Below are positions 12,045-36,036 of a stretch of DNA of 64,000 nucleotides, piece by piece (the stretch's first letter is position 1; each line of letters begins with the position of its first letter). The DNA lies in NCBI RefSeq assembly GCF_018729455.1, contig NZ_JAHHZF010000002.1:62001-126000 (forward strand), read 5' to 3'. Origin of the DNA: Prosthecodimorpha staleyi (GTDB lineage Bacteria; Pseudomonadota; Alphaproteobacteria; Rhizobiales; Ancalomicrobiaceae). The notes beneath the pieces were generated by a model. The model had not been told where the DNA came from. It ran no database searches and saw only the letters and a list, made by a program, of their open reading frames with translations. Both the position numbers and the translations under genes were made by a program.

Positions 12045-12210
12045 GCTCTTCTCCAAGGATTGCGGCTGACGGTGATCGCCTGCGGCACCGACGGTGCCGG
12101 AATGGAGCCCGCGCCCTTGATCGCCGCGCCGACGCAAGAGACCGGTAGCGATGCGCCGGGACCGACAGCGCGGCCGCTGCTCCGCCGACAGGATCGGAGG
12201 CCCCGCCGCC

Positions 12211-13128: not shown

Positions 13129-13210
13129 ATCGGTTGTTCAGCTCTCGTGCAGGTTCAGGCCGCACTCTTCAGCGACCGGAAGGGGCATCTTCGAGGTCTC
13201 GGGAATCCGG

Positions 13211-13300
13211 GCGGCCTTCGGCCGCCATGTGGGCTTCGGCCGCCAAGTGGGCTTCGACCACCAAGCGGGCTTCGACCGCCGGGTGTGCCTCAGCCGCCGG
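13211..13300. repeat. Five tandem 18-bp repeats
   Basis: Five consecutive 18-bp units (13211, 13229, 13247, 13265, 13283) follow the pattern GYGGGCTTCGRCCGCCRR with a few mismatches. The last unit overlaps the stop codon of the glycosyltransferase ending at 13290, and the rest fill the spacer before the next minus-strand gene. Each unit is in register with six codons, but no coding gene covers the array. Confidence 0.8.
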
Positions 13301-15664: not shown

Positions 15665-15844
15665 CGGAGTATCGGCCTTCGAAACATCATTGGATGCCCT
15701 CGAGATCCGGTTCGGCTGTCACGCTTCATGGGAGCAGATCGGATCTCTGAAACGCAGGAGCGGCCGGCGTCCGGAAACCCGTTCGGAAGCCGATGCTGCG
15801 CTCGGCTCCAGACATCAGGGGGCGGCAGGCCTGACGCGAAATCG

Positions 15845-17029: not shown

Positions 17030-17044
17030 CGGCTTGGACGTCCA

Positions 17045-18172: not shown

Positions 18173-19379
18173 ACAGGAACGCTCCGAGCCCCGCCCCGAC
18201 GGCGGCCGATGACAACCGTTCCTTGACGCGCTGCCGCCCAGCCGCGGCCCGGGTCGCCGCCGCCTGCCGGTTGCCTTCGATCCAGACCAGGCGCGCTGCC
18301 AGTTCTTCCGCCGCTTCGGTTTCGAGGATCACCGCGGTCTCGTCGTCGAACACCATGCGCATGTCGCTCACATCCGTGCTCAGCAGCAGCATCCCGGTGG
18401 CGGCGATCTCGACAACCTTGGAGGGAAACGTGGTCTGGCCGACGCTGTGGCTCGGCAGCTTGAGGCACAGGCCGACGGCGGACAGTCCGACCAGCGCCCG
18501 ATAGGTCGCCGCCGGGACGAGGCCGTGCAGCGACAGGCGCAGACGCCCGACGCCGTTGACCTCTCGCGCCAGATCCGCGAACAGGGCCGCGTCGTAATGG
18601 CCGGTCAGATGGAAATGCAGGGCCGCCTCGGGATGGTCTCGGACAATCAGGCGAACGGTCGCCGCAAAGAGATCGCTCCCGGTGCCCGGCATGATGTTGC
18701 CGCCGAAGGAGACATGGAGTTCCTCGCCGAAGAAGCGATCGCCGGCCGGCTCCGGGACGTCGAAGTAATCGGCCACGCCGTAGATCGCCATATAGGTGTC
18801 GAAGCCCATCCGGCGCGCGAGCTGGTGGGAAACCGTCAGCCGACGCCGGGCACAGAGCCGGTCCAGAATCGGATAGGCGATCCTGGTCACCCGGGAGATC
18901 AGGTCCTTGTCCTGCGCGATGGGGCCGTCCTCGATGTCGAGGATCGCCGGGTTGCCGGCCAGCCGCAAAACGAGGGCGGCGAACACATATTCGGGGAAGA
19001 AATTGTAGAGGACGACCCGGTCGCCGCGCCGCACCGTCCGCAGCGTGAACAGCAGCAGGGCGAGCCCCGCCGTCATCCGCTTGACCACGAAGCGTCCGGC
19101 CACGGGGACGACCATCATCGGCACGGGATGATCGTGACAATCCTCGGCTCGGGAGAACAGGCGCCGGAGCGGCCCGGGGACGACGGAACTGACGACGATC
19201 GCATCCCGGCCGGCGGCCTTGAGGGCGGAGCAGACGCCGAGCACCTTGTTGCGCACGGCCGGAACATCCAGAAACGTGCCGTGAAGGCCGTTCAGCCGGT
19301 CGCTGGATACGGGGGCGAAATAGAAGACGCGAGGCGGCATAAGGAGAACGGCTCTGCTCTTGGCGTTGAAGGGGCGCAT
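18165..19379 (-). CDS. Glycosyltransferase-like protein (GT-B fold)
   Basis: The 404-residue protein has a GT-B pattern: PPRVFYFAPVSSDRLNGLHG start, AILDIEDGPIAQDKDL, SHQLARRMGFDTYMAIYGVADYF at the domain junction and KLPSHSVGQTTFPSKVVEIAATG in the donor-binding half. A canonical EX7E is not evident; E in KVVEIAATG may serve. The start is uncertain: ATG 19379 or ATG 19340 (MPPRVFYF), neither with a clear ribosome-binding site. The GT4-like family call is good; activity is inferred from the locus. Confidence 0.8.
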   Translation of the reverse strand: MRPFNAKSRAVLLMPPRVFYFAPVSSDRLNGLHGTFLDVPAVRNKVLGVCSALKAAGRDAIVVSSVVPGPLRRLFSRAEDCHDHPVPMMVVPVAGRFVVKRMTAGLALLLFTLRTVRRGDRVVLYNFFPEYVFAALVLRLAGNPAILDIEDGPIAQDKDLISRVTRIAYPILDRLCARRRLTVSHQLARRMGFDTYMAIYGVADYFDVPEPAGDRFFGEELHVSFGGNIMPGTGSDLFAATVRLIVRDHPEAALHFHLTGHYDAALFADLAREVNGVGRLRLSLHGLVPAATYRALVGLSAVGLCLKLPSHSVGQTTFPSKVVEIAATGMLLLSTDVSDMRMVFDDETAVILETEAAEELAARLVWIEGNRQAAATRAAAGRQRVKERLSSAAVGAGLGAFLFD

Positions 19380-19451
19380 CGGCGCTTCGCCGGGCGACGC
19401 CGCCCGGGCGGCGGGCCATCGCTTCGTCCGACCGGTCGCCGATCGATCCGC

Positions 19452-20678
19452 CTAAGGTTCGGATATCGGCGATCGAGACGTCGCGGCGGCGGTGACCGCA
19501 TCGGCAGCCAGCGACACTCCCGCGGCCTCCAGAACGATGTCCTGGTAGGCACGGCCGAACGCCGCGAAGCGTTCCGGCCGCAGCCGCTCCGCTTCCGCTC
19601 GGAACAGCGCATCGCTGTCCGGTGAAGCCGTTTCGGCGACGTCCGACATTGCCGCCGCCAAGGCGTCCGCATCGTGAGGTGGGAAGTAATGGCCGCGGTC
19701 CGGCGCCTGTTCCCGATGCACCGGAATGTCGGACAGGATGACGCTCTTGCCCATCGACTTGGCCTCCTCCACCGAGGTGCTCCAGCCTTCGAACAAGGAC
19801 GGGTTGATGACCGCGACGGCGTGCCGGTAGAGAGCGGCAACATCGGGAAAGGGAACGACGCCGAGCGCGCGGAAGTCGTCGGCGACGCCAAGCTCGACGG
19901 CCCGCGCCATGACCGCCTCTGCATGGTCCGGCGCGCGGAAATCGCGCATCAAGCCCGTCGAGATGACCAGCCTCGGCATGCCGCGCGCCCGAAGGCGCGC
20001 GAGCGCCTCCACGACAACCGCATGATTCTTGTGCTTCCAGAACTGGTTCGGCAGATAGAAATACGGCCGGTCGATGCCGTATCGCGCCCTGAGGATGAAC
20101 TCGGCGCGTTCCTCCCCCGGACTGCCGAACCCGGATACGAATCTGAGGACGCGACTGCGGGCCAACGCGGCCGGCTCGAAGCGCGACAGATCACTCTGTG
20201 CGCTCGAACTGCTCAAGACGACGAGCCTCGATTGCCGGACATTCTGCCGATAGCCGATCTCCCGCCGACGGATCTCGGACGGAGGAAACAGATCCGGCAG
20301 ATGCAGATACTGGAAATCCGGGATCCAGGTGATCGCCGGCAAACCGGCGCGCGGCCCGAGCGGCGGGCTGTGCGACAGGACGGCGACGCCCTGCGCGCGC
20401 AGATAGGTTTCCAGCACCAGGTTGCGACCGGCCGCCCGTTCGACCGCCTTGCCCAGCAGGCGAACCGGATGGCGGCGGGCGACGAAGGACGTCCTGACGA
20501 TCCCGATGCCCCGGAACCCTTCCAGGAGCACCTGCGGGGTTTGGGGGGCGGCGAACACGACCGGCTCGATGCGCCGGTCGGGCAGGCTCATGACCGCCTG
20601 ACACAAATTGGCGATGTAGTTCACGCCGCCGAGCCAGCCCGCATCGGTGGCGTTGACGATGAAGGCCACCCGGATCAT
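19452..20678 (-). CDS. Family 4 glycosyltransferase (mannosyltransferase-like)
   Basis: Start chosen at the ATG at 20678, which overlaps the epimerase stop (ATGA); the open frame further upstream is a shadow. The 408-residue product begins IRVAFIVNATDAGWLGGVNYI. It contains SHSPPLGPRAGLPAITWIPDFQYLHLP, the segment FYLPNQFWKHKNHAVVVEAL and the EX7E motif in NPSLFEGWSTSVEEAKSMG. These are shared by GT4 enzymes of O-antigen and capsule loci. It acts on the lipid-linked repeat in the cytosol. Donor unknown. Confidence 0.92.
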   Translation of the reverse strand: MIRVAFIVNATDAGWLGGVNYIANLCQAVMSLPDRRIEPVVFAAPQTPQVLLEGFRGIGIVRTSFVARRHPVRLLGKAVERAAGRNLVLETYLRAQGVAVLSHSPPLGPRAGLPAITWIPDFQYLHLPDLFPPSEIRRREIGYRQNVRQSRLVVLSSSSAQSDLSRFEPAALARSRVLRFVSGFGSPGEERAEFILRARYGIDRPYFYLPNQFWKHKNHAVVVEALARLRARGMPRLVISTGLMRDFRAPDHAEAVMARAVELGVADDFRALGVVPFPDVAALYRHAVAVINPSLFEGWSTSVEEAKSMGKSVILSDIPVHREQAPDRGHYFPPHDADALAAAMSDVAETASPDSDALFRAEAERLRPERFAAFGRAYQDIVLEAAGVSLAADAVTAAATSRSPISEP

Positions 20679-21586
20679 TCCGCCCCCCGCGCGTACCATT
20701 CCGCGTAGGCGGCGACCTCGGTAGGCAGATCCCGCGAAGGGCTCCACGCGAGATCCCGGGTCGAGGCGATGTCCGCCTGGTAATGCTGCGGATCGCCCGG
20801 TCGGGCCTGCCCGGAAAAGCGCGGCAAGAGACCCGGCCGCAGCGCGCGGGCGAGAATTTCCAGAACCGTGCGGTTGGACGTCGCGACGCCGGTCCCGCCG
20901 TTGAAGACCGGACAGTGTCGGCCGGCCGCCTGCGCGGCCGCGCCGATCAACCGGGCGGCGTCCTCGACATGCAGCCAATCGCGTGTCTCTTCGCCGGTTC
21001 CGGCGAAATCGATCTCGCCGCGGCTGAACTTCAGGCTGGCGTCCCACAGCAACTGCTTGCGCAGCCCGATCCCGTAGATCGAGAACAGACGCACCGCCGC
21101 GACGTTCAGTGAAAAGTGCCGGGCATAGGAGCGGGCCATGTCCTCGACGATGACCTTGTTGGTGCCGTAGGGAGACACGGGATTGCGCGGCGCATCGACC
21201 CGGATCGGCAGCGTCTCTGCCAGTCCGTAGACGCCGGCGCTGGACGGAACGACGAGACGTGCCGCCGGCACATACAGGCGCTGATATTCCAACACGGCCA
21301 AGGTCGTCAGCACCGAGCGTTCGAAGTCCTGACGCGGATGCGACATGGAGTAGGCGACCGACCCCGACCCAGCGCAGTGGATGATCACATCCGGCTCGCC
21401 GCCATAGGTCGCCAGGGTATCGAGCGTCACGTCGACGCCATGCCACGCCTCCAGGCCCCAGCGGCGCCACTCGCCGAGCGCCCAGACGCCATGGCCGACG
21501 CCGGCGACGCGGTATCCCGTCTCGGCAAGACGCCGGGCGACATGGCGCCCGATGAAGCCATAGGCGCCGGTGACAAGAGCTTTCAC
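20675..21586 (-). CDS. NAD-dependent sugar epimerase/dehydratase
   Basis: This is a 303-residue extended-SDR protein: GAYGFIG nucleotide-binding motif (about 7-13), VVPSSAGVYG with the catalytic Ser, and SPYGTNK as the YxxxK motif. It ends with the family region ASTRDLAWSPSRDLPTEVAAYAEW. It likely interconverts or dehydrates a nucleotide sugar that feeds the glycosyltransferases. The exact reaction (4-epimerisation, reduction or dehydration) cannot be told. It is translationally coupled to the downstream glycosyltransferase. The UDP-xylose-synthase remnant at 11847 is a separate sequence. Confidence 0.9.
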   Translation of the reverse strand: MKALVTGAYGFIGRHVARRLAETGYRVAGVGHGVWALGEWRRWGLEAWHGVDVTLDTLATYGGEPDVIIHCAGSGSVAYSMSHPRQDFERSVLTTLAVLEYQRLYVPAARLVVPSSAGVYGLAETLPIRVDAPRNPVSPYGTNKVIVEDMARSYARHFSLNVAAVRLFSIYGIGLRKQLLWDASLKFSRGEIDFAGTGEETRDWLHVEDAARLIGAAAQAAGRHCPVFNGGTGVATSNRTVLEILARALRPGLLPRFSGQARPGDPQHYQADIASTRDLAWSPSRDLPTEVAAYAEWYARGAE

Positions 21587-21658
21587 GCTACGAACGACCT
21601 TCCATCCACCGAAGTCACGGCAACAACCGCCACCAAAAATTTGAATTCCATATACACA

Positions 21659-22351
21659 TCATGTAACCTTATTTATATCGCTTATTACTTCAATTTCTTC
21701 GTTAATATCTCGATCGAGATGGCGAATGACTTTCGCCGGAAACCCGGCAACGACCGTATAGGGTGCCACATCCTTGGTGACGACACTCCGCGCTGCGACG
21801 ACGGCTCCCTCACCGATCGTGACGCCCTTCAAGACCGTGGCCCCGAACCCGATCCAGGCGTCGTTGCCGATGGCGATCGGCGCCGAGGGCACGTCGGTCA
21901 GGATCGGCGGATGACCATTGGAGAAAATGTCCAGGAAATGCTGATGCCTCGCCCGGGCCGAGAAGGAATGCGAATTGCTGTCGTGAATATTGACATCGTG
22001 CGAAATCAGAACGCGATCGCCGATGACGATCGAATTGGCCGACCATATGTTCGTCCGCTCGCCGATGAAGCAATACGCGCCGATCTGGATGTCGCCGCCA
22101 TGCCCCATGGTCTCCAGACGAGCCAGAATTCGGCTCTGACGGCCGATCCGGATGTTGTCCCGCGCTCGATTGTTGGCGATGATGCACGCCGGATAGAGGA
22201 CCGCACCGTCCTCGGCGACGCACGATGCCAGCTTTATCTTGCGCTCGAAATGTTGTGCGAACCGTTCGGGGGTCCGGAGCAGGCGACGCAGGATCCTCGG
22301 GAGAAGATCGGCATGCGGCCTGACGAATTCTTGGCGAGGATTGTCAGTCAC
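21659..22351 (-). CDS. Hexapeptide-repeat O-acyltransferase (LbH type)
   Basis: The 230-residue protein carries left-handed beta-helix turns: NIRIGRQSRI, DIQIGAYCFIGERTNIWSAN, IVIGDRVLISHDVNIHDSNSH (His-rich catalytic region), APIAIGNDAWIGFGATVLKGVTIGEGAVVAARSVV. It ends VVAGFPAKVI. The 3' end and the spacer below it (about 21590-21720) are strikingly AT-rich for this genome. Its start overlaps the flippase stop by eight bases, so the two are co-translated. It likely acetylates a sugar precursor or repeat unit using acetyl-CoA. Confidence 0.9.
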   Translation of the reverse strand: MTDNPRQEFVRPHADLLPRILRRLLRTPERFAQHFERKIKLASCVAEDGAVLYPACIIANNRARDNIRIGRQSRILARLETMGHGGDIQIGAYCFIGERTNIWSANSIVIGDRVLISHDVNIHDSNSHSFSARARHQHFLDIFSNGHPPILTDVPSAPIAIGNDAWIGFGATVLKGVTIGEGAVVAARSVVTKDVAPYTVVAGFPAKVIRHLDRDINEEIEVISDINKVT

Positions 22352-23729
22352 GAAGCACCCTACTGGCGACCAGCCCCAAGGGCAGGAGCGCGAAGACGAG
22401 AAAGGCGGCGGAGGTTGCCCAGATCGCCCCGGACACGCCGAACTGGCCGATCAGGGCAACCTTGAGCAGAATGGCCACGACGGCCGTCGTGGATGCGAAG
22501 ACAATCTGCGGTCCGACCCTGTGGGCGCCGTTCAACAGCATCGCGATCGGCGCTCCGGCCGCCTCGCAAACCTTCCAGACCGCGAAGCCGACCAGCAGAA
22601 GCAGGGACGGCGCCACCGCGCGGCCGACCCAGGCCTCGATGATCCATGGCCCGGTGACGACCAGGACCAGCGAGCCCGTAAGCGCGATGCAGACGTTGGC
22701 AAGGATCGATCGTCTCAGCATCCGGCTTGCCCAGGCGCGATCGCCGCGCGCGATGGCTTCGCCGAAGGCCGGCCACAGGGGCGCCGTGATCATGCCCAGA
22801 ACCGCCGACAGGGCCGCGAACAGTTTCTCCGGTACCGCGAAATCGGCCACGGCCGCCGGCCCGAGCAAATGGGCGATGATCAGCGAATCCGAGCTGTAGG
22901 TGACGGCGACCACCGACTGAAGAACCAGAAACAGGAAGCCGGTCGAGAGCACGCCTGCCATCACCGCCCCCTGCACCCGCCGCAGGGACGGGCGCAGATC
23001 GGGCCGCCGAAACAGGAAGAACCACACCGCGTTGCCGGCCACGGCGACCTGCGGAATGCCGAACAGGGCGGCGACGAGCCAGGGAAGCCCGCCCTCGAGA
23101 CGGACCACCGCCAACACCGCCGCCAGACCGAGAAGATTGCCGCCGGACTGCCACAGGCTCACGGTGAAGCCTTGTTGCAGTCCCGTTTGGACCTTCTGAA
23201 CGATCGAGAGGGGAAAGGCGGCCAGAAAGCAGGCGGCGAAGACGGCGACGGCAGGGCCGGCCTCCGAACGCGCCAGATCGGTCGAGACGTTGAACAGACG
23301 GAACCAGTCGATCCGCGGATAGGCGAGCACGAACGCGCCGGCCAGGACCCCGGCGAGAATCACGAGGATCGCAACGGCACTCGACACGACGGTCCGGATG
23401 CCGTCGAAACTGTCCTTGCCGTTGAGGCGGGCGACCATGGTGAGTACGCCATTGCCGACGCCGAGGTCGGCGAACCCCAGAATGGCGACGAACGAACTCA
23501 TGATCATCCACATGCCGTAGCGCTCCGCACCCAGATAGTGCAGCGTCAGCGGCACGGAGATGAGGGCGGCGGCGATCGAGATCGCCCGGCCGACCGCCGA
23601 TGCCAGCGCGCTCAGCACGATGCGGCGGTGACGCTCATGGGCCCGTGCGGCCTCGGCCGACGCTCCGACCGGAGCCGAAAGGCCGGCCGCCAGCCGCCGC
23701 CAAAGCGCCGGGCGTGAGGGGGCCGTCAT
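22344..23729 (-). CDS. Polysaccharide flippase (Wzx/RfbX-like)
   Basis: Start placed at the ATG at 23729 (MTAPSRPALWRRL). The preceding open frame is Arg-rich shadow sequence. The 461-residue protein has about 12 membrane helices in the MOP/polysaccharide-transport pattern: LTLHYLGAERYGMWMIMSSFVAILGFADLGVGNGVLTMVARLNG is the classic N-terminal signature. DSLIIAHLLGPAAVADFAVPEKLF lies in the second half. It should flip the finished lipid-linked repeat unit to the periplasm for polymerisation. It is the only flippase in the locus. Confidence 0.9.
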   Translation of the reverse strand: MTAPSRPALWRRLAAGLSAPVGASAEAARAHERHRRIVLSALASAVGRAISIAAALISVPLTLHYLGAERYGMWMIMSSFVAILGFADLGVGNGVLTMVARLNGKDSFDGIRTVVSSAVAILVILAGVLAGAFVLAYPRIDWFRLFNVSTDLARSEAGPAVAVFAACFLAAFPLSIVQKVQTGLQQGFTVSLWQSGGNLLGLAAVLAVVRLEGGLPWLVAALFGIPQVAVAGNAVWFFLFRRPDLRPSLRRVQGAVMAGVLSTGFLFLVLQSVVAVTYSSDSLIIAHLLGPAAVADFAVPEKLFAALSAVLGMITAPLWPAFGEAIARGDRAWASRMLRRSILANVCIALTGSLVLVVTGPWIIEAWVGRAVAPSLLLLVGFAVWKVCEAAGAPIAMLLNGAHRVGPQIVFASTTAVVAILLKVALIGQFGVSGAIWATSAAFLVFALLPLGLVASRVLRD

Positions 23730-23772
23730 TCGAGGCCGCGGATGACGCACAGCCGGCCGGACCGGGACGCCG

Positions 23773-26058
23773 TCACGGGCCGCCGCTCTCCGCCCGGTCG
23801 AAATAGGCCAGCCCCGCGAGGGCGCTGCGACGGTCCGCGGGTGGCGCCGGCGGAGCGCCCGGCCGGAGGCTTGCGGCAAGCGCGCCGATCGCCTGGGCCG
23901 ACCACGCCGAAAGGCCGGAGGGCGAAACCGTGCGCGACCCCGTCTCCCGCAGGAACGGTACCGTGGACGCACGCCAGGCCTTGGCGACTGGCGCATCGAC
24001 GGCAAGATTGTCCTCGAACGCGTTGCCGACCGGCGCTCCGGGGCGGTCGCCGGGGAAGGCCGCCAGCGCGGGATAGCGCGCCCGCCATGTCGGCGACTGG
24101 ATGTCGACCGCGTGCAGCTTCTTCATCAGCACGCTATCGGGCTTGCCGTAGGCCTGTTGCCAAGCCAGTCCGCGATCGTCCATGAAGATGCCGGCTTCGC
24201 GCGGTGCGACGAAGAGGTTGCCGACGACGTGGTTGTCCCGCCCGCCGCCGACCAGCACGCCATAGCGTCCGCCGGCGATCACGTTGCCGATGATTTCGAC
24301 ACCGCTGAACTGATCGTCCAGATAGATCCCGAACACGCTGGCCGGATCCGTCCGGTCAATTGGGCCGAAATCATGGATGAAATTGTCCGCGATCCTGTTG
24401 CCGCGCTGGGTCCAATCCCGCCCCATATAGATCACGCCGGCGTCGTCCGTCTCCCGCACCAGATCGGCGAACTCGTTGCCCGCCACGGAGTGCTCGTTGC
24501 CGACAACCTGGATGCCCCAATGGGGACCGTGGACGATCAGGCAGCCGGAGACCGTCGCCCCGACGCCGGACAGCGAAAGCCCGGGCGCGAGCCTGACCTG
24601 ACCGAACCAGGCTACGACGGTGTCCTCGATCCGATGGCGGCTTTCCGTCAATGACGGGCGGTCGCCGCCCGAAACCGTCACGCCGGTTCCAGTCGTGTCC
24701 GCCACGACGCAGCGCCGCACGGCCACATCCTCGCCGCCGTCGATTCGCAGGCCGGTGCCGATCGTCTGTCCGACGTAGCAGTCCTCGACGGACACGTTGC
24801 GGCTGCCGTCGACGGCGAGCGCCGGCCCGAATGACCGCTCAATGGCGAGGTTCGCAAGCCGGATCCATCGGGCGTCCTTCAGGACGACCACGCCGCGCGA
24901 TACGATGACCTCCACATCCTGACCGGATGCGCCCAGCCGGATGCTCGGCCCCCTCGGTCCGCGATCCAGCACGACGGCCCCCGGGGCTCCCGGCCCCAGG
25001 TCGGCATTGTAGACCGCGATCCGCCCGATCGCGCGGGGCGGGAACTCGCGCAGCCGATCGACGATCAGGCTCTTCGTCTCGGGATCGGAGCCCGTGACCG
25101 GGAGCACCTCGCGCAGCCAGTCATAGGCCAGATAGCCGCTGACCCAGAGGTTCGGCTGCCCTGCCAGTCGCTCGAACTCGTCCGGCCGGAGCCGGATCGC
25201 GACCTTGTCGCCGGCCGCGCCGACGGTCTGCAGCGCCCGCCGATCGTAGCCGACGGTCGGCATGCGCGTGGGCATAAGGCGCCGGTCGCCCGCGAAAAAG
25301 GCGTAGCCGGCCTCCGCGGCGGCACTGAAGTCCTCTGCACCCGCGCCCGGCGCGGCGCCATGCATCCAGGACGGCTGCACCCGCGTCGACCCGAGCGGCA
25401 CGGCACCGGAGAGCACCGTTCCCCCGCCGGCTGCGCCGCGCAGTGTCAACGGCCCGCCGGGCACGCCGGAATCGCCGGGTCCGAGGACGATCGGCGCCTT
25501 GACCCGGTAGGTGCCGGGTTGCAGGAGCAGGGTGACCGCATCCTCGGGCCGGGTCCGCCGGTGTTCGCGTGCGGCCGCCAGGGCGCGGCCGATCGCTCCC
25601 GGATCGGACGGCGGCGCGACCCGGATGGTGAATTCCTCCGACGCGGCGGCAGACGCCCAGAGCGCGAGCATCGCAAGGGCAATCGAGAGAAGCCGCCCTC
25701 CCCGCCCGAAAACGCCCCAGACGGCCGCCCGCCGATTGTGCGCGGTCCATTCGGCCGGGGCCTGCGGCGGCCTCCGCAGCGGAGCGGCTCCGGGTCGATC
25801 GATCGCCCCGGCCGATCCGGCTGCGCGTGGTCGCGTGATCCGACCGGTTCGGGGGCCGCCCGCCCGACACGGGTTGGCGTCCGCCTCCGGCTCCGGCCCC
25901 GCCGACAGAGAATCGCGCCTCACGGGCGAGCCCCATCCCGGACCGCGGCGCCACGCAGCAACGGGCCCCGCAGCCATCCTGCCGTCGCCCGGGCCTGCGA
26001 CCGGATGCCGATCGAGGAAAGACCGAAAGATGAAAGCCAACGCAGCCGATCTTCCCAT
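23773..26058 (-). CDS. Secreted right-handed beta-helix protein, start uncertain
   Basis: The mature protein begins after a signal-like stretch SIALAMLALWASAAAS (end near 25620). It then shows EFTIRVAPPSDPGAIGRAL and the parallel beta-helix pattern of pectate-lyase/mannuronan-epimerase-like proteins (LLQPGTYRV, VSVEDCYVGQTIGTGLRIDGG, NRIADNFIHDFG, EIIGNVIAGGRYGVLVGGGRDNHVVGN). It probably binds, cleaves or epimerises the exopolysaccharide outside the cytoplasm. The start is unclear: in-frame ATGs at 26058 and 25977 leave 110-145 Arg/Pro-rich residues before the signal sequence and have no ribosome-binding site. The true N-terminus may use another codon. Confidence 0.75.
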   Translation of the reverse strand: MGRSAALAFIFRSFLDRHPVAGPGDGRMAAGPVAAWRRGPGWGSPVRRDSLSAGPEPEADANPCRAGGPRTGRITRPRAAGSAGAIDRPGAAPLRRPPQAPAEWTAHNRRAAVWGVFGRGGRLLSIALAMLALWASAAASEEFTIRVAPPSDPGAIGRALAAAREHRRTRPEDAVTLLLQPGTYRVKAPIVLGPGDSGVPGGPLTLRGAAGGGTVLSGAVPLGSTRVQPSWMHGAAPGAGAEDFSAAAEAGYAFFAGDRRLMPTRMPTVGYDRRALQTVGAAGDKVAIRLRPDEFERLAGQPNLWVSGYLAYDWLREVLPVTGSDPETKSLIVDRLREFPPRAIGRIAVYNADLGPGAPGAVVLDRGPRGPSIRLGASGQDVEVIVSRGVVVLKDARWIRLANLAIERSFGPALAVDGSRNVSVEDCYVGQTIGTGLRIDGGEDVAVRRCVVADTTGTGVTVSGGDRPSLTESRHRIEDTVVAWFGQVRLAPGLSLSGVGATVSGCLIVHGPHWGIQVVGNEHSVAGNEFADLVRETDDAGVIYMGRDWTQRGNRIADNFIHDFGPIDRTDPASVFGIYLDDQFSGVEIIGNVIAGGRYGVLVGGGRDNHVVGNLFVAPREAGIFMDDRGLAWQQAYGKPDSVLMKKLHAVDIQSPTWRARYPALAAFPGDRPGAPVGNAFEDNLAVDAPVAKAWRASTVPFLRETGSRTVSPSGLSAWSAQAIGALAASLRPGAPPAPPADRRSALAGLAYFDRAESGGP

Positions 26059-26070
26059 GCTACCGCCATC

Positions 26071-26093
26071 GGGGTGAAACGACGTTTCACCCC
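26071..26093. promoter_or_regulatory. Perfect 10-bp hairpin between NusG paralogue and distal polysaccharide genes
   Basis: GGGGTGAAAC and GTTTCACCCC flank a three-base GAC loop. The hairpin sits in the 146-bp gap after the NusG-like gene and just upstream of the beta-helix gene. It could be an attenuator or pause hairpin read through with help of the NusG paralogue, or a protein-binding site. On the minus strand no T-run follows, so it is not a standard terminator. Confidence 0.5.
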
Positions 26094-26204
26094 CTCTTTC
26101 GGCTTGCCGAGACTCCGTCACGCCCCGGAGGCGAGACTGGTGGTCAAGAAGTCAGTGGCTCCGAGTCACGAGACGGATGGCAGTCATCCGTGTCGATCGA
26201 ACCA

Positions 26205-26744
26205 CTAGCCGGCAGGCTGCAGCACGGTTCGCGCCACGCGGGCACGGACCGTGTTGCCGTTGAGCAGATCCAACAACACTTCGACGCGCCCTTTGGCGTC
26301 GAGGCTCAGGAGTTCGCCGACGCTGCCGGCCATCGGTCCCGCGATCAGCCGGACGCGATCACCAGGCTGGTAGCCGTAGTCGGGTTCTATGACGCCGTCA
26401 GGACGAACCGCGGCGGCAAGCGTTTCCACCAACCCGTCCGGAACCGGCGATGGGCGGTCACGGGCCATCACCAGCGACGCCACGCCGGTCGTGCCGTTGA
26501 CGGCCCGCCAGCGATCGCGGGTCACATCGAGGCTGACGAAGAGATAGCGCGGGAACAGGGCCACGCGCACGGTTTCGATCCGGCGGGCATGGCGGCGGGT
26601 CCTCTCGACCAATGGCAGGAAGGTTGCCCAGCCCTGCCGGCCCATATGCATGCATGCCAGCGATTCCCTGTTCGGCAAAGTATGAACCACGTACCAGCGA
26701 TGGCCAGCCGCACTATCTCGCAAAACCGCACCCCACAGTCTCAC
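26205..26744 (-). CDS. NusG-family specialised antiterminator (RfaH/LoaP-like)
   Basis: The 179-residue protein has the NusG N-terminal domain (HRWYVVHTLPNRESLACMHM, FLPLVERTRR, ALFPRYLFVSLD, TTGVASLVM) and a C-terminal KOW domain (GDRVRLIAGPMAGSVGELLSL). The length fits operon-specific paralogues such as RfaH, LoaP and UpxY rather than housekeeping NusG. These bind RNA polymerase and suppress pausing and termination in long surface-polysaccharide operons. It starts 18 bases after the ligase gene, so it is inside the operon rather than ahead of it. The start (GTG 26744, or an in-frame TTG nearby) has no clear ribosome-binding site. Confidence 0.88.
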   Translation of the reverse strand: MRLWGAVLRDSAAGHRWYVVHTLPNRESLACMHMGRQGWATFLPLVERTRRHARRIETVRVALFPRYLFVSLDVTRDRWRAVNGTTGVASLVMARDRPSPVPDGLVETLAAAVRPDGVIEPDYGYQPGDRVRLIAGPMAGSVGELLSLDAKGRVEVLLDLLNGNTVRARVARTVLQPAG

Positions 26745-26762
26745 AAATTCTATGCATTTCGA

Positions 26763-28253
26763 CTATTTTCCTGGCACATCGCTTTTGTTTTTACTTTCCG
26801 TACCGCATGAGGACTCTCCACGACCGAGCGCGACGACGCTCGCCATAGCCAGGATCGAGGCCGCATACATGGCGACGCCATGAATCTGGATGGAGAAATC
26901 AACACCGGCGTGGGTGGCGACCAGGACCAGCGCACCGAGACCCGTGGCGACCAGATGCCTTTGCCGGTGACGCCAGCCGACCCCTCGACGAAACATCGAA
27001 ACCAGTCGCCAGAGCACGAGCAGGAGGATCGCCAGGAACGACACCCCCAAGCCGAGCGTCGCCTCCAGATAGCTGTTGTGCGCCCGGTCCCAGACCCCCT
27101 CGATACCGGCGCAGGCGACATCGCGGTAGAGCGGGAAGATGTCCGCAAAGGTCCCGAAGCCGGTGCCGAAGAGCCAATTGTCGCCGACCGCCGACAAGGT
27201 GGACCAGTATGTGCAGAAGCGACTGTCGTCGGCGCCATGCTCGTTCAACCGTTGCAGGGCCAGCCCGCCGAACAGAATGAAGCCTGTCACGATCGAACCG
27301 TAGCCGACGATCGACCGCCAATTCGGGCCAACATCCCTGTTTTGGGTCCGCACTCCCATGACGGCGAAGACGACCAGAAAGCCGATCGCGGTGGCGATCA
27401 GGCCGCCACGCGATGCGCTCAGGAACAAGGCGACCAGACTGAGCATCGCCGCACAGGCAGCCCGCAGCGTGTCCGCCACGGCATCATCCCCGCGCCATTG
27501 GAACGAGCAGGTCCGCTCGGCGAGATCGCCCCAGTCCAGTTTGCGCGTCGTGCCCAGGAACTGCCCGAACCATATCAGCGCAACGAGACCCAGAAAGGTC
27601 GCCGCACTGTTGCGGTTGACGAAGGTCGCCGTCAGCGAACCCAGATAGGTCCATTTCTCGAAGATCAGGATCGTGTTCGGCACGAGCAGAAACTGAGCCA
27701 AGCCGAATACAACGACCGAAAGACCGAAGACCCTCAGAAATCGGGCCAAGCGAAACGCCGCGCGATCACTGCCGAACACGATGAGCGCAGCCACGAAAGA
27801 CAGGATCGGCGCGACAAGCGGGACGAGGCTCCAGGCCGTCGCCTCGGAATTGATGGAAATGGTCGGCCTGACCACTCCGAAGTCCTGGGACAGGCGGTTC
27901 CCGGCCGGATCGACTGCCAGCAGACTCTGTGCCGGGATGCGCTGCAGTACCAGCAGTCCGACCAATACGGCGGCAACCAGCGCGGCGTCGAGGAGCAGGC
28001 GCCCGACGGCCGGATTCGATACCGGTCGGCCAAGCGAAAGAACCAGGATCAGGCAGGTGCAGAGCGCCGACAGGCCGAGCGGTACCGTATGGACGGCTCC
28101 GAACGGCATCACGGCCAGGATGACGGACGCGAAGAAGAGCCACTCGAGCAACCGCTGGCCGGCCGCGACCGCGGGCGCAGCAGCCGGCCTCGGACCGGCC
28201 TGCGCAGCGGCGACACAGCGGGCTCCTGCGGAAGCCGGAACGGGCCGCGTCAC
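26763..28253 (-). CDS. O-antigen ligase-like membrane protein (Wzy_C domain)
   Basis: The GTG at 28253 has AGGAGG five bases upstream and overlaps the preceding stop by four bases (GTGA). The 496-residue product has about 12 membrane helices. The Wzy_C hallmarks are present: GLVALIWFGQFLGTT region, LFLSASRGGLIATAIGF, and the periplasmic loop GTGFGTFADIFPLYRDV followed by WDRAHNSYLEATLGLGV, which contains the conserved H-N. It polymerises or ligates undecaprenyl-linked glycan. It lies beside the kinase and export genes, so it may be the main polymerase, with 15845 as the second. The longer open frame upstream is a shadow. Confidence 0.9.
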   Translation of the reverse strand: MTRPVPASAGARCVAAAQAGPRPAAAPAVAAGQRLLEWLFFASVILAVMPFGAVHTVPLGLSALCTCLILVLSLGRPVSNPAVGRLLLDAALVAAVLVGLLVLQRIPAQSLLAVDPAGNRLSQDFGVVRPTISINSEATAWSLVPLVAPILSFVAALIVFGSDRAAFRLARFLRVFGLSVVVFGLAQFLLVPNTILIFEKWTYLGSLTATFVNRNSAATFLGLVALIWFGQFLGTTRKLDWGDLAERTCSFQWRGDDAVADTLRAACAAMLSLVALFLSASRGGLIATAIGFLVVFAVMGVRTQNRDVGPNWRSIVGYGSIVTGFILFGGLALQRLNEHGADDSRFCTYWSTLSAVGDNWLFGTGFGTFADIFPLYRDVACAGIEGVWDRAHNSYLEATLGLGVSFLAILLLVLWRLVSMFRRGVGWRHRQRHLVATGLGALVLVATHAGVDFSIQIHGVAMYAASILAMASVVALGRGESSCGTESKNKSDVPGK

Positions 28254-29035
28254 GGACGCCTCCTGCCGACGCCGGGCGGGTCGAGGAACGGAACGGTTTC
28301 GGCCGGCTGCCGGGGCTGGCCGATGTCCAGACCAACCCGGTCCGCGGCGGCATAATGACGGCGGCGCTCGCGGGCGGTCATGCTTCCGAGGCGATCGAGA
28401 TAGAAATTCCTGAACAGGCCGGGCCAGCGTTGCACGACGGCGACCACGCCCGCCGGGTTCGTGCCGAACTCGACCAGGAGAGCGAAATCCCTGCGCGCCG
28501 GTTCCCGGAAGGCCTCGACCCCACGCGCGGCAAGATCCGCGTAGAAGGGCAACCGGCCGCGCAGGACCCAGCCCTCGAAGGGTGCCAGCCGGTCGGCATG
28601 GGCGAAGGAGGCCGACACGGCCGGGGTCAGGCCTCCGTCCGCGATCTCCACCATGGCCAGACGCAGCCAGGCATTGCCGTCCGTCGGCACGCAGGCGATC
28701 AGCCGCCGGGTCTGGTCGAGGACCGCGGCCCGGGCCGCATCGACCCGCTCCAGATCGTCGCCCGTGACGGCGAGATCGAGCCGCGCCAGAGCAATGGACA
28801 CGCGGGCGCGCCGGATCCGCGCATCGCAGATGCCGTCCAACCGCGCCTCGGGATAGGTGGCGTCGAACCGGTCCAGATAGGCCTGGTCGATCGCGGCGCC
28901 ACCCTCGATCCGCGCTGCCAGATCGAGTTCGGGCGTGGCGCGCAGCGTCTTGACGAGCATGTCGCTCGCCTGCCACGCCACCGCACCGGCAACCCACAAG
29001 GCAATCATCTTACCGAGCAGGACGGAACCAGACAT
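28250..29035 (-). CDS. Small membrane-anchored protein of unknown function in the polysaccharide operon
   Basis: The ATG at 29035 overlaps the kinase stop (TGATG), so the product has 261 residues. It has one N-terminal membrane segment or uncleaved signal (VLLGKMIALWVAGAVAWQ). The remainder is mostly Ala/Arg-rich helices, with pieces such as WLRLAMVEIADGG that recall TPR-like packing (about 110-150). No family is recognised. Position between the tyrosine kinase and the ligase, with overlaps on both sides, argues that it belongs to the polymerisation/export machine, perhaps as a periplasmic helical scaffold (inference). Confidence 0.7.
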   Translation of the reverse strand: MSGSVLLGKMIALWVAGAVAWQASDMLVKTLRATPELDLAARIEGGAAIDQAYLDRFDATYPEARLDGICDARIRRARVSIALARLDLAVTGDDLERVDAARAAVLDQTRRLIACVPTDGNAWLRLAMVEIADGGLTPAVSASFAHADRLAPFEGWVLRGRLPFYADLAARGVEAFREPARRDFALLVEFGTNPAGVVAVVQRWPGLFRNFYLDRLGSMTARERRRHYAAADRVGLDIGQPRQPAETVPFLDPPGVGRRRP

Positions 29036-31341
29036 CAACGGTCACGATAGTATTTTTTGTATTTTCCATAATAATAATCACGCGATCCGTAATCCTCATA
29101 GAGTCGGACGCCCGCCAAATTTGCCTTGTTGAGGACGACACCGAGCGTCTTCTCATAGACGGACTGTTCGTGCTCGAGCGTCGAACGGACGACATGACGC
29201 GCCGTTCGTCCCCATTCGACGACGAATACGAAGGCATCGAACAGTCTCGCGGCGGCGCGCACGTCCACGATCGGCCCGACCGGCGGCAGGTCGACGAAGA
29301 TATAGTCGTAGTCCTGGCCGGCATCCTGCAGCAGCGCCTGCATGGCGGCGGACGAGATCAGCTCGCCGGTATGCGAGAGATTGCGCCGTCCGACCGCCGG
29401 CAACAGGTCGAGGCCGGTCTCACCCTCGCGCAGCAGCAACTCCCGAAACGGCACTCCGTCCATCAGCACCTCGACCAGGCCCCGGGCGGCATCAGGTGCC
29501 GTCGCCCTGGACAATCCGGGATTGCGCAAGTCGGCATCGATCACCAGGGTATGGGCGCCCAGATGCGCCACCAAGGAGGCGAGGTTCTTGGCGATCGTGG
29601 ACTTGCCTTCGTTCGGCAGCACCGAGACGAGCCCGATGATCTTCGGTCGATGACTTCCAAGCGTGATGTCGGCGGCAACCTTGGCGGAGCGCAGGACTTC
29701 AGCAAATCCCGACAGCGGCGAGCCGACCGAGTAGCGCATCACGCCTTGGGATATGACAGGCGGGTACGGACCCGACGCTGCGCCCATGGAAACCGGATGC
29801 ATGCTGCGCAGTTGCGAAGCGCTGACCGCCGGCAGGAAGCCCAAGAACTCAAGGCCGAGTTCGTCGCGGACCTGTCGTCCCGTTCGAAAGACACGGTCGC
29901 GAAACTCGCGGACCGCACCGATGCCGAAGCCGAGCCCGAGACCCAGGATGGTCACGAAGGCAACGACGAGACTCTTCTTCGGATGGGACGGCGCCAGAGG
30001 CCGCGACGCCGCCGTGATCACGCGCGCCTCGGTGATCGGGAAGGATTGCTTCTGGACCGCCTCCTGATATCGCAGCAGGAAGGTCTGGTAGAGGTTCTTG
30101 TAGGTGTCGGCTTCGCGCTCCAGTTCGCGCAGCCCGACCAGTGTCTCGTTGGTCCCGGCATTCACGCCGACCAGACTGGACAGGTTTTCCTCCAGCGCCT
30201 TTTCGCGCGATCTGGAAATCTCCTGTTCGCTCTTGTAGCTCTCTGCAATGCGACCGAGTTCATCGAAGATCAGCCGCTCGTATTCGCGCATCTCCGCGCG
30301 CAGGGAGATGACCTGGATGTGACTGCGCCCCAACCGGGCCGAGAGTTCGGCCTCCGTCTTCGACGCCTTCAGGTATTTGTTGCGCAGATCGATGATGACA
30401 GGATTGCCAAGGGCCTCCGACACGGCGGCATCGGCCTGGCCGGAATCGATGATCGACTTGATCCTTTGATACCGGGCCTCGGCGCGCGCGGTGTCACCGC
30501 GGGCAATCACCAATTGACTGTTCAACTCGCTGAGCTGCTGTTCGCCGACCAATTGCCCGGACGCGCCCGATTTCACCAGCCCGTTGTCGGACTTGAAGCG
30601 CTGCACCGCCATGTCGGTCTCCAGCGCCCGGGTCTTCAGCTCCTGGATGCGGGCGAACAGCCATTCGGTGGCGCGTCGTGTCGCGTCGAACTTGGATTCC
30701 AGCTGATCATCGAGATAGGCGTCGGCGAAGGCGCGCGAGATTTCCGCCGCGCGGGACGCCTCAGGCCAGGAAAACTCGATGGAGAGCACATAGGTCCGGG
30801 CGACGCGCTTGACCGTCAGGTTGCCGGCCAAGGTCGAGATCAGCTGGCGTTCCTTGGCAAAGCGCGCCTCGGCATCGCTCCGGGCTTCGGAACCGAACCA
30901 ACGCCGCACGTCCAACGCCTGCCGGACCGCCCCGATCATGGAGCCGAACAGAGAGCCGGTGGCCCGCTGGAAGCCCGGATCGTCGGCGAGCCCGGCCTTG
31001 GCGATGACCGCCGCAATGATCCGCTCGGACTTCAGGACCTCGACCTGACTGTCGATCGCGCCGGTATCGAACTGCAATTCGGCGATCGAAGCCGTCGGAT
31101 CGGGATCATTGCCCTTGCGGCCGTCGATCAGGAGCAAAGTCGACGCCGAATACCACGGCACCGCCGTCAGCGCATGGCCCATCCCGATGATCGCGCCCAG
31201 AAGTCCGAAGAACAGAATGATCCTGTATTGTCGGCGGACCGCCGCCAACACCTGGTCGACCTGCAGCATCGCGCCGGCCGGCTGGTGCAAGTCCTCGGGC
31301 ATCCCCGGAGGCGCAATACTGGATCCGACAGGCTTCAACAT
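29035..31341 (-). CDS. Wzc/ExoP-like chain-length determinant and tyrosine autokinase
   Basis: In this 768-residue protein, residues about 40-60 form the first membrane helix (IILFFGLLGAIIGMGHAL). A Wzz periplasmic domain with long coiled coils and a GNVR-type region follows, then a second helix near 455-475 (KKSLVVAFVTILGLGLGFGIG). The cytosolic BY-kinase has Walker A LPNEGKSTIAKNLASL, Walker A' LVIDADLRNPG and Walker B YIFVDLPPVGPI. The C-terminus is a tyrosine cluster with eight Tyr in the last 21 residues. Autophosphorylation of that tail controls polymer length and export with Wza. Site GAGGTGAG precedes the ATG. Confidence 0.95.
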   Translation of the reverse strand: MLKPVGSSIAPPGMPEDLHQPAGAMLQVDQVLAAVRRQYRIILFFGLLGAIIGMGHALTAVPWYSASTLLLIDGRKGNDPDPTASIAELQFDTGAIDSQVEVLKSERIIAAVIAKAGLADDPGFQRATGSLFGSMIGAVRQALDVRRWFGSEARSDAEARFAKERQLISTLAGNLTVKRVARTYVLSIEFSWPEASRAAEISRAFADAYLDDQLESKFDATRRATEWLFARIQELKTRALETDMAVQRFKSDNGLVKSGASGQLVGEQQLSELNSQLVIARGDTARAEARYQRIKSIIDSGQADAAVSEALGNPVIIDLRNKYLKASKTEAELSARLGRSHIQVISLRAEMREYERLIFDELGRIAESYKSEQEISRSREKALEENLSSLVGVNAGTNETLVGLRELEREADTYKNLYQTFLLRYQEAVQKQSFPITEARVITAASRPLAPSHPKKSLVVAFVTILGLGLGFGIGAVREFRDRVFRTGRQVRDELGLEFLGFLPAVSASQLRSMHPVSMGAASGPYPPVISQGVMRYSVGSPLSGFAEVLRSAKVAADITLGSHRPKIIGLVSVLPNEGKSTIAKNLASLVAHLGAHTLVIDADLRNPGLSRATAPDAARGLVEVLMDGVPFRELLLREGETGLDLLPAVGRRNLSHTGELISSAAMQALLQDAGQDYDYIFVDLPPVGPIVDVRAAARLFDAFVFVVEWGRTARHVVRSTLEHEQSVYEKTLGVVLNKANLAGVRLYEDYGSRDYYYGKYKKYYRDR

Positions 31342-31398
31342 TCGGAACTCACCTCGTCAGCCTGCCAATACGACGACAGACAGCGCAACTGACATCGA

Positions 31399-32049
31399 TC
31401 AGCGGGTCGGGCTGACCGAAAGGGCGTCGGAAGCGATGGAACCGCCTGCGAGCGAAGCGCTCGTGCTGGGCGTGGCCGTTGTGCTGCCCTCGGAGACGTC
31501 GGCAGCCGTTCGGTTGCTTCCCGAGCCGCCGTCAGTGCCGGCGCTGTTGCCGCCCTCTCCGGTCGCGCCACCGACCCCGCCGCCAGCCGAGATCGAGGCA
31601 GAATCGACGCCGCCGGCGGCGGACAGAAAGGCCGCCATGAACTGACCGTCGGCAACCTGCCCCATCACGGCCTGCAGCTTGACGGCCAGATCCGGGCGGT
31701 TGCGCACGCAGGCCTGAACGGCCTGCGAACTGCCGGCGCCGAGGGCGGCCTTCTGGCTCGGGCTCGCGCTTTTGGCCAGGCTCGCCATCGCTTCGGCCGC
31801 CGTCACGTCGCTGGTCAGGATGGAGCGCACCGCCAGGGTCAAGGCGCGGCCGCCTTCGGGATACTGCGCAAGAAGCGCCTCCGGACTCGACACGAAGTCC
31901 TGGATCGCCGCTTCCGGGGCGCGGGCCGAACCGCTCACGCAGGCATTGCCGCCAGCCGCACCCGCCGACTGTGCCTGCGCCTCGCCCCCCGAGACCGACA
32001 GACCGGCAATGCCGATCGCGAGCGCGCACGTGATCAAAGACTTCAACAT
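31399..32049 (-). CDS. Small secreted Ser/Ala/Gly-rich protein of unknown function
   Basis: The 216-residue protein has a good site (GGGAGA five bases before the ATG) and a signal peptide ending near EAQA. Residues 35-140 form a helical domain with two Cys (NACVSGS and VQACVRNR), likely disulphide-linked. A tail rich in Gly, Ser and Thr of about 75 residues follows. It lies between the Wza-like and Wzc-like genes, so a role in export or surface retention of the polymer is plausible. I recognise no named family, although similar small secreted proteins occur in Rhizobiales polysaccharide loci as far as I recall. Confidence 0.75.
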   Translation of the reverse strand: MLKSLITCALAIGIAGLSVSGGEAQAQSAGAAGGNACVSGSARAPEAAIQDFVSSPEALLAQYPEGGRALTLAVRSILTSDVTAAEAMASLAKSASPSQKAALGAGSSQAVQACVRNRPDLAVKLQAVMGQVADGQFMAAFLSAAGGVDSASISAGGGVGGATGEGGNSAGTDGGSGSNRTAADVSEGSTTATPSTSASLAGGSIASDALSVSPTR

Positions 32050-32121
32050 CGCAATCTCCCAAATACCGACCGGTCAGGCAGCACTCCTGGACTGCAAATC
32101 CTCAACTGCACCCTGATCGTG

Positions 32122-33339
32122 TCACTTGCTGAGCGTTTTCACGGAGTGCCTGACCGAAACAGCGTCGGTTCCGACCTTCGCCGCTCCGCCCGTCACGCCC
32201 GTCACAAACGTAATGAACTTCATCACCTCAATCTGATCGGCATTCGATACATAAACGATGTCACCATCCCGGATCGGAAACTTCTGCGCAGCGAAGAATG
32301 AAGACGGATCGCGGAAATTCGTCCGATAGACCGTCGGAATCTTTTTCTGCGCCACGTCAAAGGGTGTCAGATCGACCTTCATTTTCTCCAGCGCCGCGCG
32401 ATCTTCCGCGCGGTAGACGAAGACCTGACCCGGATCCGCACGATCATCCATCAGACCGCCGGCTTTGCCGACCGCGTCGGACAGATTCACGCGCTCCTGC
32501 TCGAACTTGAACTGGCCGCTCAGTCCGGTGGCGCCGAAGGCAAGGAAGGCGCGCTGTTCGCGATAGACGTAGATCGTATCGCCTGGCACGGCATAGATGT
32601 TCTCGGAAGGCTTTTCGATGAGGGAATTGAAGTAGACCGTCGCTCTCTTGCCGCGCCTCTGCAGAGTTACATAGGTCTCGTAACCCGGATGCACGATACC
32701 GCTGGCCTTGGCGATCACGTCGAGGATGCGGTCGCCGCCGGCATTGAGCGTCAGTTTCTTGGACGCCCCCACGTCACCCACCACGGTGACTTCGTTCGAA
32801 TTCTGGCTGACCAAGGCCACGACCGCCTGAGGTTCGATCGCTCGATTGGAGAGCTTCTGCTCGATCTCGCGCTGAACGTCCGCGAGCGTCCGCCCCACGA
32901 CCTTGACCTGGCCGGCATAGGGGACCGCGATCGACCCGGCCTTGTCCACGGTCTGCTGCGGAAGCGTCACGAAGTTGCCGGGGCGGGCGCCGGCGTCGTT
33001 CGGAACGAACAGGCCACCGGACGACGATTCGAAGATCGACACCTGAATGGCATCGCCGACGCCGATCTGAAGGGAGGGCGACGGTCCGCGACCGACGCCG
33101 AAGCTGCCCCGCAGCGACCCCGGCCCCGGATCGGTCAGATAGTCGAGAATGTCAGAACCGATATCGACCAGGGCATATTTGAGAGCAACCGGCTCGGCGC
33201 TCCTGACGCTCGTGGCGGCACCGCCGTCGATAGCGCCGTCGCCCGGCCCGGCCGCAGGCAACATGCTGCAGCCGAGCAGGCCGCCCACCATGACGGCGAC
33301 CGAGGCCCCGCGCAGAAACAGGCTCGTCGCAAGAGTCAT
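32122..33339 (-). CDS. Wza-like polysaccharide export lipoprotein
   Basis: ATG at 33339 with GGAGA nine bases upstream. The 405-residue protein has a lipobox VGGLLGC, so Cys about 24 would be lipidated. The Poly_export domain (IGVGDAIQVSIFESSSGGLF...GSIAVPYAGQVKVVGRTLADVQREIEQKL) is followed by two SLBB-type domains (EVTVVGDVGASKKLTLNAGGDRILDVIAKASG; DTIYVYREQRAFLAFGATG) and a C-terminal region FPIRDGDIVYVSNADQ. It forms the outer-membrane export channel and pairs with the Wzc-like kinase. It is the first gene after the AT-rich 33340-33637 region, so it probably heads its own transcript. Confidence 0.94.
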   Translation of the reverse strand: MTLATSLFLRGASVAVMVGGLLGCSMLPAAGPGDGAIDGGAATSVRSAEPVALKYALVDIGSDILDYLTDPGPGSLRGSFGVGRGPSPSLQIGVGDAIQVSIFESSSGGLFVPNDAGARPGNFVTLPQQTVDKAGSIAVPYAGQVKVVGRTLADVQREIEQKLSNRAIEPQAVVALVSQNSNEVTVVGDVGASKKLTLNAGGDRILDVIAKASGIVHPGYETYVTLQRRGKRATVYFNSLIEKPSENIYAVPGDTIYVYREQRAFLAFGATGLSGQFKFEQERVNLSDAVGKAGGLMDDRADPGQVFVYRAEDRAALEKMKVDLTPFDVAQKKIPTVYRTNFRDPSSFFAAQKFPIRDGDIVYVSNADQIEVMKFITFVTGVTGGAAKVGTDAVSVRHSVKTLSK

Positions 33340-33637
33340 CGGCAATATTCTCCAATACCAGTTTGCGCCATCCTACCAGCAGACAAATGATTTCTCAAAT
33401 GTAATGCCTCCGCGTCGATGCTTGAATCTCTGTAAAGTTGCCCATAAGGCACACACGATTCAATACAGAATCATGAATTTGATTTCAGATCGATGATTGA
33501 CATAATGATTCTTCATATTTATATTTCACACGCATTCAACAATACTGATATTCACATTCGACTCGGATGCCAATACGGGGATTGATCAAGAGCCCAGGGC
33601 ACCGCCCGTTCGGGCTTCGATCGTTTCGACGGAGGCC
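33340..33637. promoter_or_regulatory. AT-rich control region ahead of the export operon
   Basis: About 300 bp with no gene and much lower GC than its surroundings (for example 33440-33560). It separates the phosphatase gene from the Wza-like gene and should carry the minus-strand promoter of the export operon. AT-rich islands before exopolysaccharide genes are common MucR/Ros or H-NS-like targets in this order (inference). I could not fix a -35/-10 pair. Confidence 0.55.
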
Positions 33638-35987: not shown

Positions 35988-36036
35988 CACCGACACCCGA
36001 TCGTATAATTCATATTGATACGCCAACTCTTGACGT

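Follow-up and report, generated by a model that had tools for sequence, protein, structure and literature searches.

Gene organization of the polysaccharide cluster

The window (the whole 64,000-nucleotide stretch of DNA analysed here) derives from Prosthecodimorpha staleyi, a freshwater bacterium. A polysaccharide cluster occupies positions 10078-36026, and all of its genes are co-directional on the minus strand. At its upstream end lie metallophosphoesterase and sugar-phosphate transferase genes (33638-36026; PF00149 and PF02397), which a gap of 292 nt separates from the early genes. The latter begin with a Wza-type polysaccharide export gene (32122-33345; PF02563 Poly_export and PF22461) and an ORF without a Pfam match (31399-32049), the product of which has a 46% identical counterpart in Prosthecomicrobium hirschii over 153 amino acids. 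A gene for a Wzc/Wzz-type chain-length and kinase protein (29035-31341; TIGR01005, 436 bits, above the cut-off) is followed by a second ORF without a Pfam match (28250-29038), recognized by its codon-position G+C. The last gene ahead of the factor studied here encodes a Wzy_C protein, an O-antigen ligase/polymerase (26763-28255, with the start at about 28255 placed by eye from the translation; PF04932). The factor gene itself (26205-26744, minus strand) has a GTG start codon and begins 18 nt past the Wzy_C stop at 26763. From Wza to the factor gene, the gaps calculated from ORF coordinates do not exceed 72 nt.

The late genes extend over about 15 kb (10078-25760, the first start at about 25760 again being placed by eye) and were delimited by Pfam matches and codon-position G+C. 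A beta-helix gene comes first, and the run includes flippase-like, glycosyltransferase, epimerase and acyltransferase genes, two hexapeptide transferases and one ORF without a Pfam match. The final ORF (10078-11283), for an EamA-type transporter, is perhaps not part of the run. This order, with the ligase and export genes ahead of the factor gene and a long co-directional run after it, had been described in a first-pass annotation of the DNA, and the ORFs and Pfam matches agree with it. Third-position G+C is lower in the early (0.79) and late genes (0.82) than in 17 flanking genes (0.91), which would fit an origin as foreign DNA, the usual target of RfaH.

When positions 25500 to 33369 were scanned with a simple search for sigma70-type promoters, the minus strand gave no site. 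Given that no such site separates the early genes from the ops-like element described below, this element is probably carried on the transcript of the factor gene. Judging from the spacing and the promoter scan, the early and late genes probably share one transcript, and the cluster promoter would lie before or within the early genes. In the 292-nt gap, a sigma70-like site matching 11 of 12 letters (33497-33525, plus strand) points away from Wza and is antisense to the phosphoesterase gene.

The gene encodes an RfaH-type NusG paralog

The 179-residue product is composed of an NGN and a KOW domain, and its matches to the Pfam families NusG (PF02357; E = 3e-17, 63.3 bits) and KOW (PF00467; 23.9 bits) both exceed the cut-offs. 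Among the curated models, RfaH (TIGR01955) ranked first with 99.1 bits, which is below its cut-off of 144.5, and outscored the NusG, UpxY and LoaP models; the protein also remained under the cut-offs of UpxY (73 against 100) and LoaP (49.9 against 125). The best solved-structure matches by sequence were RfaH, and the best folds retrieved by Foldseek were NusG and RfaH-ops complexes.

The housekeeping NusG of P. staleyi is encoded on a separate contig (C27) of the 6.19-Mb genome. A tree of 106 rows placed the housekeeping NusGs, those of P. staleyi and E. coli among them, on a long branch and separated them from the paralog with 100/100 support, while the window protein grouped with proteins from P. 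hirschii, Siculibacillus and one Agrobacterium. The residues are in line with this separation. F56, which participates in polymerase binding, is present in 81 of 81 family rows, as compared to Leu in 10 of 10 NusGs. Similarly, the Phe of the Rho loop is invariant in the same NusGs (10/10) and is replaced by L, M, I or V across the paralog family. The Rho-binding loop reads L-L-N in the window protein versus I-F-G in NusG, so that the NusG loop is lost. The family fits the residue changes from NusG to RfaH that are described in the available part of PMC7593976.

The tree and the residues rule out a housekeeping NusG. As the first-pass annotation had anticipated, the gene is an RfaH-type specialised NusG paralog, which belongs to an alphaproteobacterial clade. 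Since E. coli RfaH has a long branch and its placement in the tree is unsure, we make no claim of descent from it.

An ops-like element preceded by a stem-loop

The ops-like element GGCGGTAGCATG (26056-26067, minus strand) sits 137 nt past the stop codon of the factor gene and matches GGCGGTAGCNTG exactly. A search for such an element near 26060-26200 had been proposed in the first reading of the sequence; the element detected lies between the gene and the late genes, and its core is conserved 3' of homologous genes. Four nucleotides before the core GCGGTAGC, the RNA can form a perfect 10-bp stem with a 3-nt loop (26071-26093, minus strand; z = -3.71 for a 51-nt stretch). This stem-loop, placed immediately before GGCGGTAGC, reproduces the JUMPstart layout. 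The E. coli rfb leader, which scores 60 bits with the Rfam JUMPstart model, likewise carries a 5-bp stem followed by ops. In the window, the JUMPstart model (RF01707) produced no match at the gathering score, and none in 25950-26250 at E-values up to 10. A known RNA family for the element region was accordingly rejected, as Rfam gave no match there.

The composite pattern TCACCCNNANNGCGGTAGC occurs as a single exact copy in the P. staleyi genome. Its near-matches comprise one copy with one mismatch, which overlaps a long open frame, and 19 with two mismatches, as compared to 8 copies of the backward control at up to two mismatches. GGCGGTAGCNTG alone is present in 4 copies, versus 15 for its backward control, a count that would be compatible with a chance look-alike of ops in a GC-rich genome. 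That reading is extremely improbable and already strongly disfavoured, because the composite is unique as an exact copy and because both the position and the sequence of the element are conserved in relatives. The other three copies of GGCGGTAGCNTG lack the conserved arm. They and the one-mismatch composite were considered as extra target sites in the genome and rejected, since all of them overlap long open frames.

The strength of the stem and its location in an intergenic gap could also suit a terminator or attenuator of the early operon, or the late genes may have a separate promoter nearby, so that the factor would mainly serve to overcome the stem; for LoaP, the available part of PMC12691694 describes such promotion of readthrough at a terminator in the leader. 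We consider this highly unlikely, given that in the window the stem is not followed by a run of T and that the letters past the stem are conserved. Furthermore, a scan covering the sigma70 type only found a sigma70-like site in none of the 47 stop-to-hairpin gaps of the window and its relatives, and none near the site. An internal promoter between the gene and the element was rejected on the same count.

Conservation of the element in relatives

To describe the element beyond P. staleyi, we used the loci of the best 80 of 567 relatives, an alphaproteobacterial set that leans to close relatives. In a k-mer count made without any preset motif, GCGGTAGC ranked first among the 8-mers of the 400 nt that follow the gene, with 46 of these best 80 loci containing it, while the top 8-mers of the control stretches reached 18/80 in the 600 nt upstream and 16/74 at 2 kb further downstream. 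The next-ranked 8-mers, such as TGCGGTAG and TTCACCCG, are parts of the same ops-like element. The exact core was found within 700 nt of the stop codon in 46 of the best 80 loci, and a one-letter variant in 14, four of which have it behind TCACCC. Together with the window, this gives 47 exact elements, which start at a median of 69 nt past the stop codon (range 50-245). In 18 of 46 loci, 50 nt or less separate the beginning of the core from the next start that was called, which the crude gene caller sometimes set inside the element itself.

A position matrix, trained on the same 80 loci, detected 53 sites in them and none in the reversed sequence; 50 of the 53 sites are in the sense orientation and no further than 450 nt past the gene. 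In 30 of the 80 loci no element was detectable near the gene, and 20 of these 30 have a co-directional next gene. At the first base of the core, G is present in all 47 elements, as follows from their selection. The second base after the core is T in 37 of 47, and a G follows in 33 of 47; we take these G, T and G letters to be those of the consensus pause.

A stem immediately precedes the core in nearly all of the 47 elements, although a few stems are weak. The pairing score was 993, as compared to 808 after the 5' sides were swapped among loci (standard deviation 21.5, maximum 857 in 60 swaps). Because the 5' arms were misaligned in a plain MAFFT alignment (A3), the hairpins were found in each sequence separately and by a covariance model. 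In the covariance-model alignment, which is fitted to the structure and in which all rows were retained, five or more of them representing something other than an element just after the gene, both sides of a pair changed in 27 cells, versus 5.6 in shuffles, and 0 of 500 shuffles reached 27. The number of pairs with changes on both sides was 4 in the same alignment, which 79 of 500 shuffles reached. The stem-loop before the core covaries in the relatives.

Six plasmid stretches outside the discovery set were chosen for spread among 181 records. The position matrix detected the element after the gene in two of the six (Mesorhizobium and Ensifer), and the covariance model produced one weak match (E = 0.29). 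Within the gene tables of PLSDB, which are incomplete, three of the four element-free loci have no polysaccharide gene listed next in the same direction, and the fourth (Sphingobium) has a sugar transferase.

In Mesorhizobium prunaredense (L081), the core is altered to GCGGCGCC, while ops is retained unchanged in a close relative, L064. One T of ops is flipped out and read by E. coli RfaH. The core variants GCGGCAGC and GCGGAAGC, found in four loci (L040, L042, L047 and L115), change this T and may reflect co-variation with the protein.

Distribution of the element and its gene neighbours

A survey of 397 genomes from the order located the composite pattern TCACCCNNANNGCGGTAGC at 58 places in 54 of them, as compared to 8 places for the backward pattern. 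Thirty-seven of the 58 follow a paralog on its own strand within 500 nt, 17 are elsewhere in genomes that hold a paralog, and 4 are in genomes in which none was found. The paralog was detected in 50 of the 54 element-bearing genomes. In the first 101 genomes, with a cut-off of E < 1e-15 for the paralog, it was present in 12 of 13 genomes with the element versus 10 of 88 without (Fisher p = 6e-9).

At 12 of the 21 elements outside that 500-nt range, the first open frame was assigned: ten belong to sugar-related families (four epimerase/dehydratases, two DegT aminotransferases, a sugar transferase, a protein of the GDP-mannose pyrophosphorylase type, a glycosyltransferase and a GFO/IDH oxidoreductase) and two have no match. 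In one genome (G077; L121), the element seems to be inside a glycosyltransferase gene and may be there by chance. In another genome (G211), two paralogs are present, and each is accompanied by a separate element. In a genome of the same genus as P. staleyi (G002; L010/L148), the order is reversed: the rfaH-like gene comes about 400 nt after a composite element, and the genes that follow are different. The remote elements and this arrangement show that the layout varies within the family.

Upstream of the gene, the neighbour is a MarR_EPS regulator (TIGR04176) in 16 and Wzy_C in 5 of the 38 exact-core loci, out of 46, in which an ORF of 150 amino acids was called. The mid-operon placement pointed out at first reading therefore stands for the window; as a general rule it does not, being one of several layouts next to those with MarR_EPS directly upstream, with the element before the gene and with remote elements. 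Many ORFs upstream of rfaH overlap it by a few bases. The first downstream gene, assigned with the crude gene caller in 42 of 44 ORFs after two minus-strand calls were left out, encodes an epimerase in 10 and a sugar transferase in 8 of the 42.

P. hirschii (L147), a freshwater strain, shares the layout of the window. Its early module is syntenic with that of the window, with identities of 82% for Wza, 85% for Wzc and 77% for the RfaH-type protein, as compared to only 44% for Wzy. When the late proteins were compared with a 20-kb stretch of P. hirschii, only 1 of 12 matched (the flippase-like protein, at 24%). Given that the early module is shared, the late proteins differ and Wzy is intermediate, the element lies near the boundary at which a variable glycan module adjoins the export module.

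Residues for ops recognition and the predicted fold

The residues of E. coli RfaH that contact ops are described in PMC5995543, as far as its available part goes. Of those that contact the bases, H20 and R23 are kept in the window protein, while K10 is replaced by L and R73 by T; H33, R36 and Q37 correspond to E. coli H20, R23 and Q24. Among the 81 family rows, 42 have H at the position of H20 and 49 have R at that of R23, whereas Q24 is conserved in all 81, and H20 and R23 are only partly kept regardless of whether an element lies nearby. A HAR motif (residues 52-54 of the window protein), located in a turn between two paired strands of the NGN domain, is invariant in 41 of 41 rows of the alignment A2 and absent from E. 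coli RfaH. E48, which is needed for autoinhibition, is not conserved in the window protein. AlphaFold2, run on the alignment A2 without a positive control, predicts a beta-barrel for the C-terminal KOW domain (pLDDT 91.8).

The predicted beta-barrel and the loss of E48 are features that would be expected if the factor acted in cis without ops, in the manner of monomorphic RfaH relatives encoded beside operons, the element then being only a pause or an RNA-processing site. Such homologs are described, in the available part of PMC13015549, as active without ops and as missing some ops-binding residues, as K10 and R73 are missing here. We nevertheless regard this explanation as unlikely. The core is exactly the ops loop that RfaH recognizes, including the pause letters, the counterparts of H20, R23 and Q24 match, and elements are also found at a distance from the gene, as the 17 such places in paralog-holding genomes illustrate.

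A model for recruitment of the factor

We consider it likely that the factor is recruited at the 26056-26067 element, in an order that leads from the early to the late genes. The early part of the transcript would yield the factor, and the polymerase would pause at the ops core. E. coli RfaH binds the non-template ops hairpin at the paused polymerase. By analogy, the factor would load at the element by binding the non-template hairpin and would displace housekeeping NusG, after which the polymerase carrying it would resist termination through the approximately 15 kb of glycan-specific late genes. The feed-forward order is deduced from the layout, in which the factor gene precedes its site. Given that the two apparently lie on one transcript, expression of the late genes would depend on that of the early genes, a dependence already suggested at first reading. 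A gene of this polysaccharide cluster thus probably encodes a factor that keeps RNA polymerase going and has its landing site just after the gene itself.

The short distance between stop codon and element, with its median of 69 nt, would further allow a form of delivery in cis, which we put forward only tentatively and with rather low confidence. The polymerase would wait at the stem-loop and ops while the ribosome finishes the RfaH-type protein on the same message, and the non-autoinhibited factor would pass, while its translation is under way or has only just ended, to the very polymerase that transcribed its gene. If so, such delivery would give a physical form to the proposed ancestral recruitment in cis, and the recognition of ops would precede autoinhibition and action in trans.

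Comparison with known systems

The window resembles the E. coli RfaH/JUMPstart system (RF01707) in its RfaH-type paralog, the identical GCGGTAGC core, the stem-loop directly before ops and the polysaccharide targets. In contrast, E. coli rfaH is monocistronic and acts in trans on ops sites in leaders (PMC7593976, in the part available), while the window gene precedes its site inside the cluster. The stem of the window also differs in sequence from JUMPstart, and the Rfam model fails to find it. Unlike E. coli RfaH, the window protein lacks K10, R73 and E48 and has a C-terminal domain that is predicted as a beta-barrel. The conserved JUMPstart stem-loop of Weinberg and colleagues is listed for Gammaproteobacteria in the available part of PMC2864571.

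Other NusG paralogs share some of these features. UpxY of Bacteroides and TaA of Myxococcus are likewise encoded inside the operons that they are thought to control, whereas the 5' leaders in which UpxY acts are situated ahead of its own gene (PMC7819879, PMC7593976; both in the parts available). LoaP of Bacillus is also a NusG paralog associated with a hairpin in leader RNA; unlike the factor described here, it binds a UNCG RNA hairpin and is mostly found in Gram-positive bacteria, as stated in the accessible text of PMC12691694.

The closest parallel is with the RfaH relatives of a 2026 preprint (PMC13015549, in the part available), which are encoded beside operons, termed monomorphic and proposed to act without ops. 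As in these homologs, the gene is in or next to a polysaccharide operon, a beta-barrel C-terminal domain is predicted and some ops-contacting residues are missing; in contrast to their proposed independence of ops, a conserved ops lies just downstream in the window. The layout matters because of this proposal, and it represents either an exception to or a refinement of the rule on operon-adjacent homologs. A conserved ops-type site after the gene, in a clade for whose window member a beta-barrel C-terminal domain is predicted, is a candidate recruitment site for such factors. The order in which ops reading, autoinhibition and action in trans evolved thereby becomes directly testable.

Detailed knowledge of recruitment was limited to E. 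coli RfaH as of 2020, and 18% of rfaH genes are in Alphaproteobacteria, according to the available part of PMC7593976. In the literature on RfaH, NusG paralogs, GGCGGTAG and JUMPstart, with subscription papers largely outside its scope, we found no report of an alphaproteobacterial ops element. The literature searched also yielded no description of the pairing of such a gene with a following ops, and for the family name MarR_EPS only an unrelated match. The element may serve as a marker for polysaccharide operons and their regulators across Alphaproteobacteria. A wrong label or a transfer may account for one metagenome-assembled genome labelled Gammaproteobacteria (L078), the RfaH-like protein and ops of which group among alphaproteobacterial ones.
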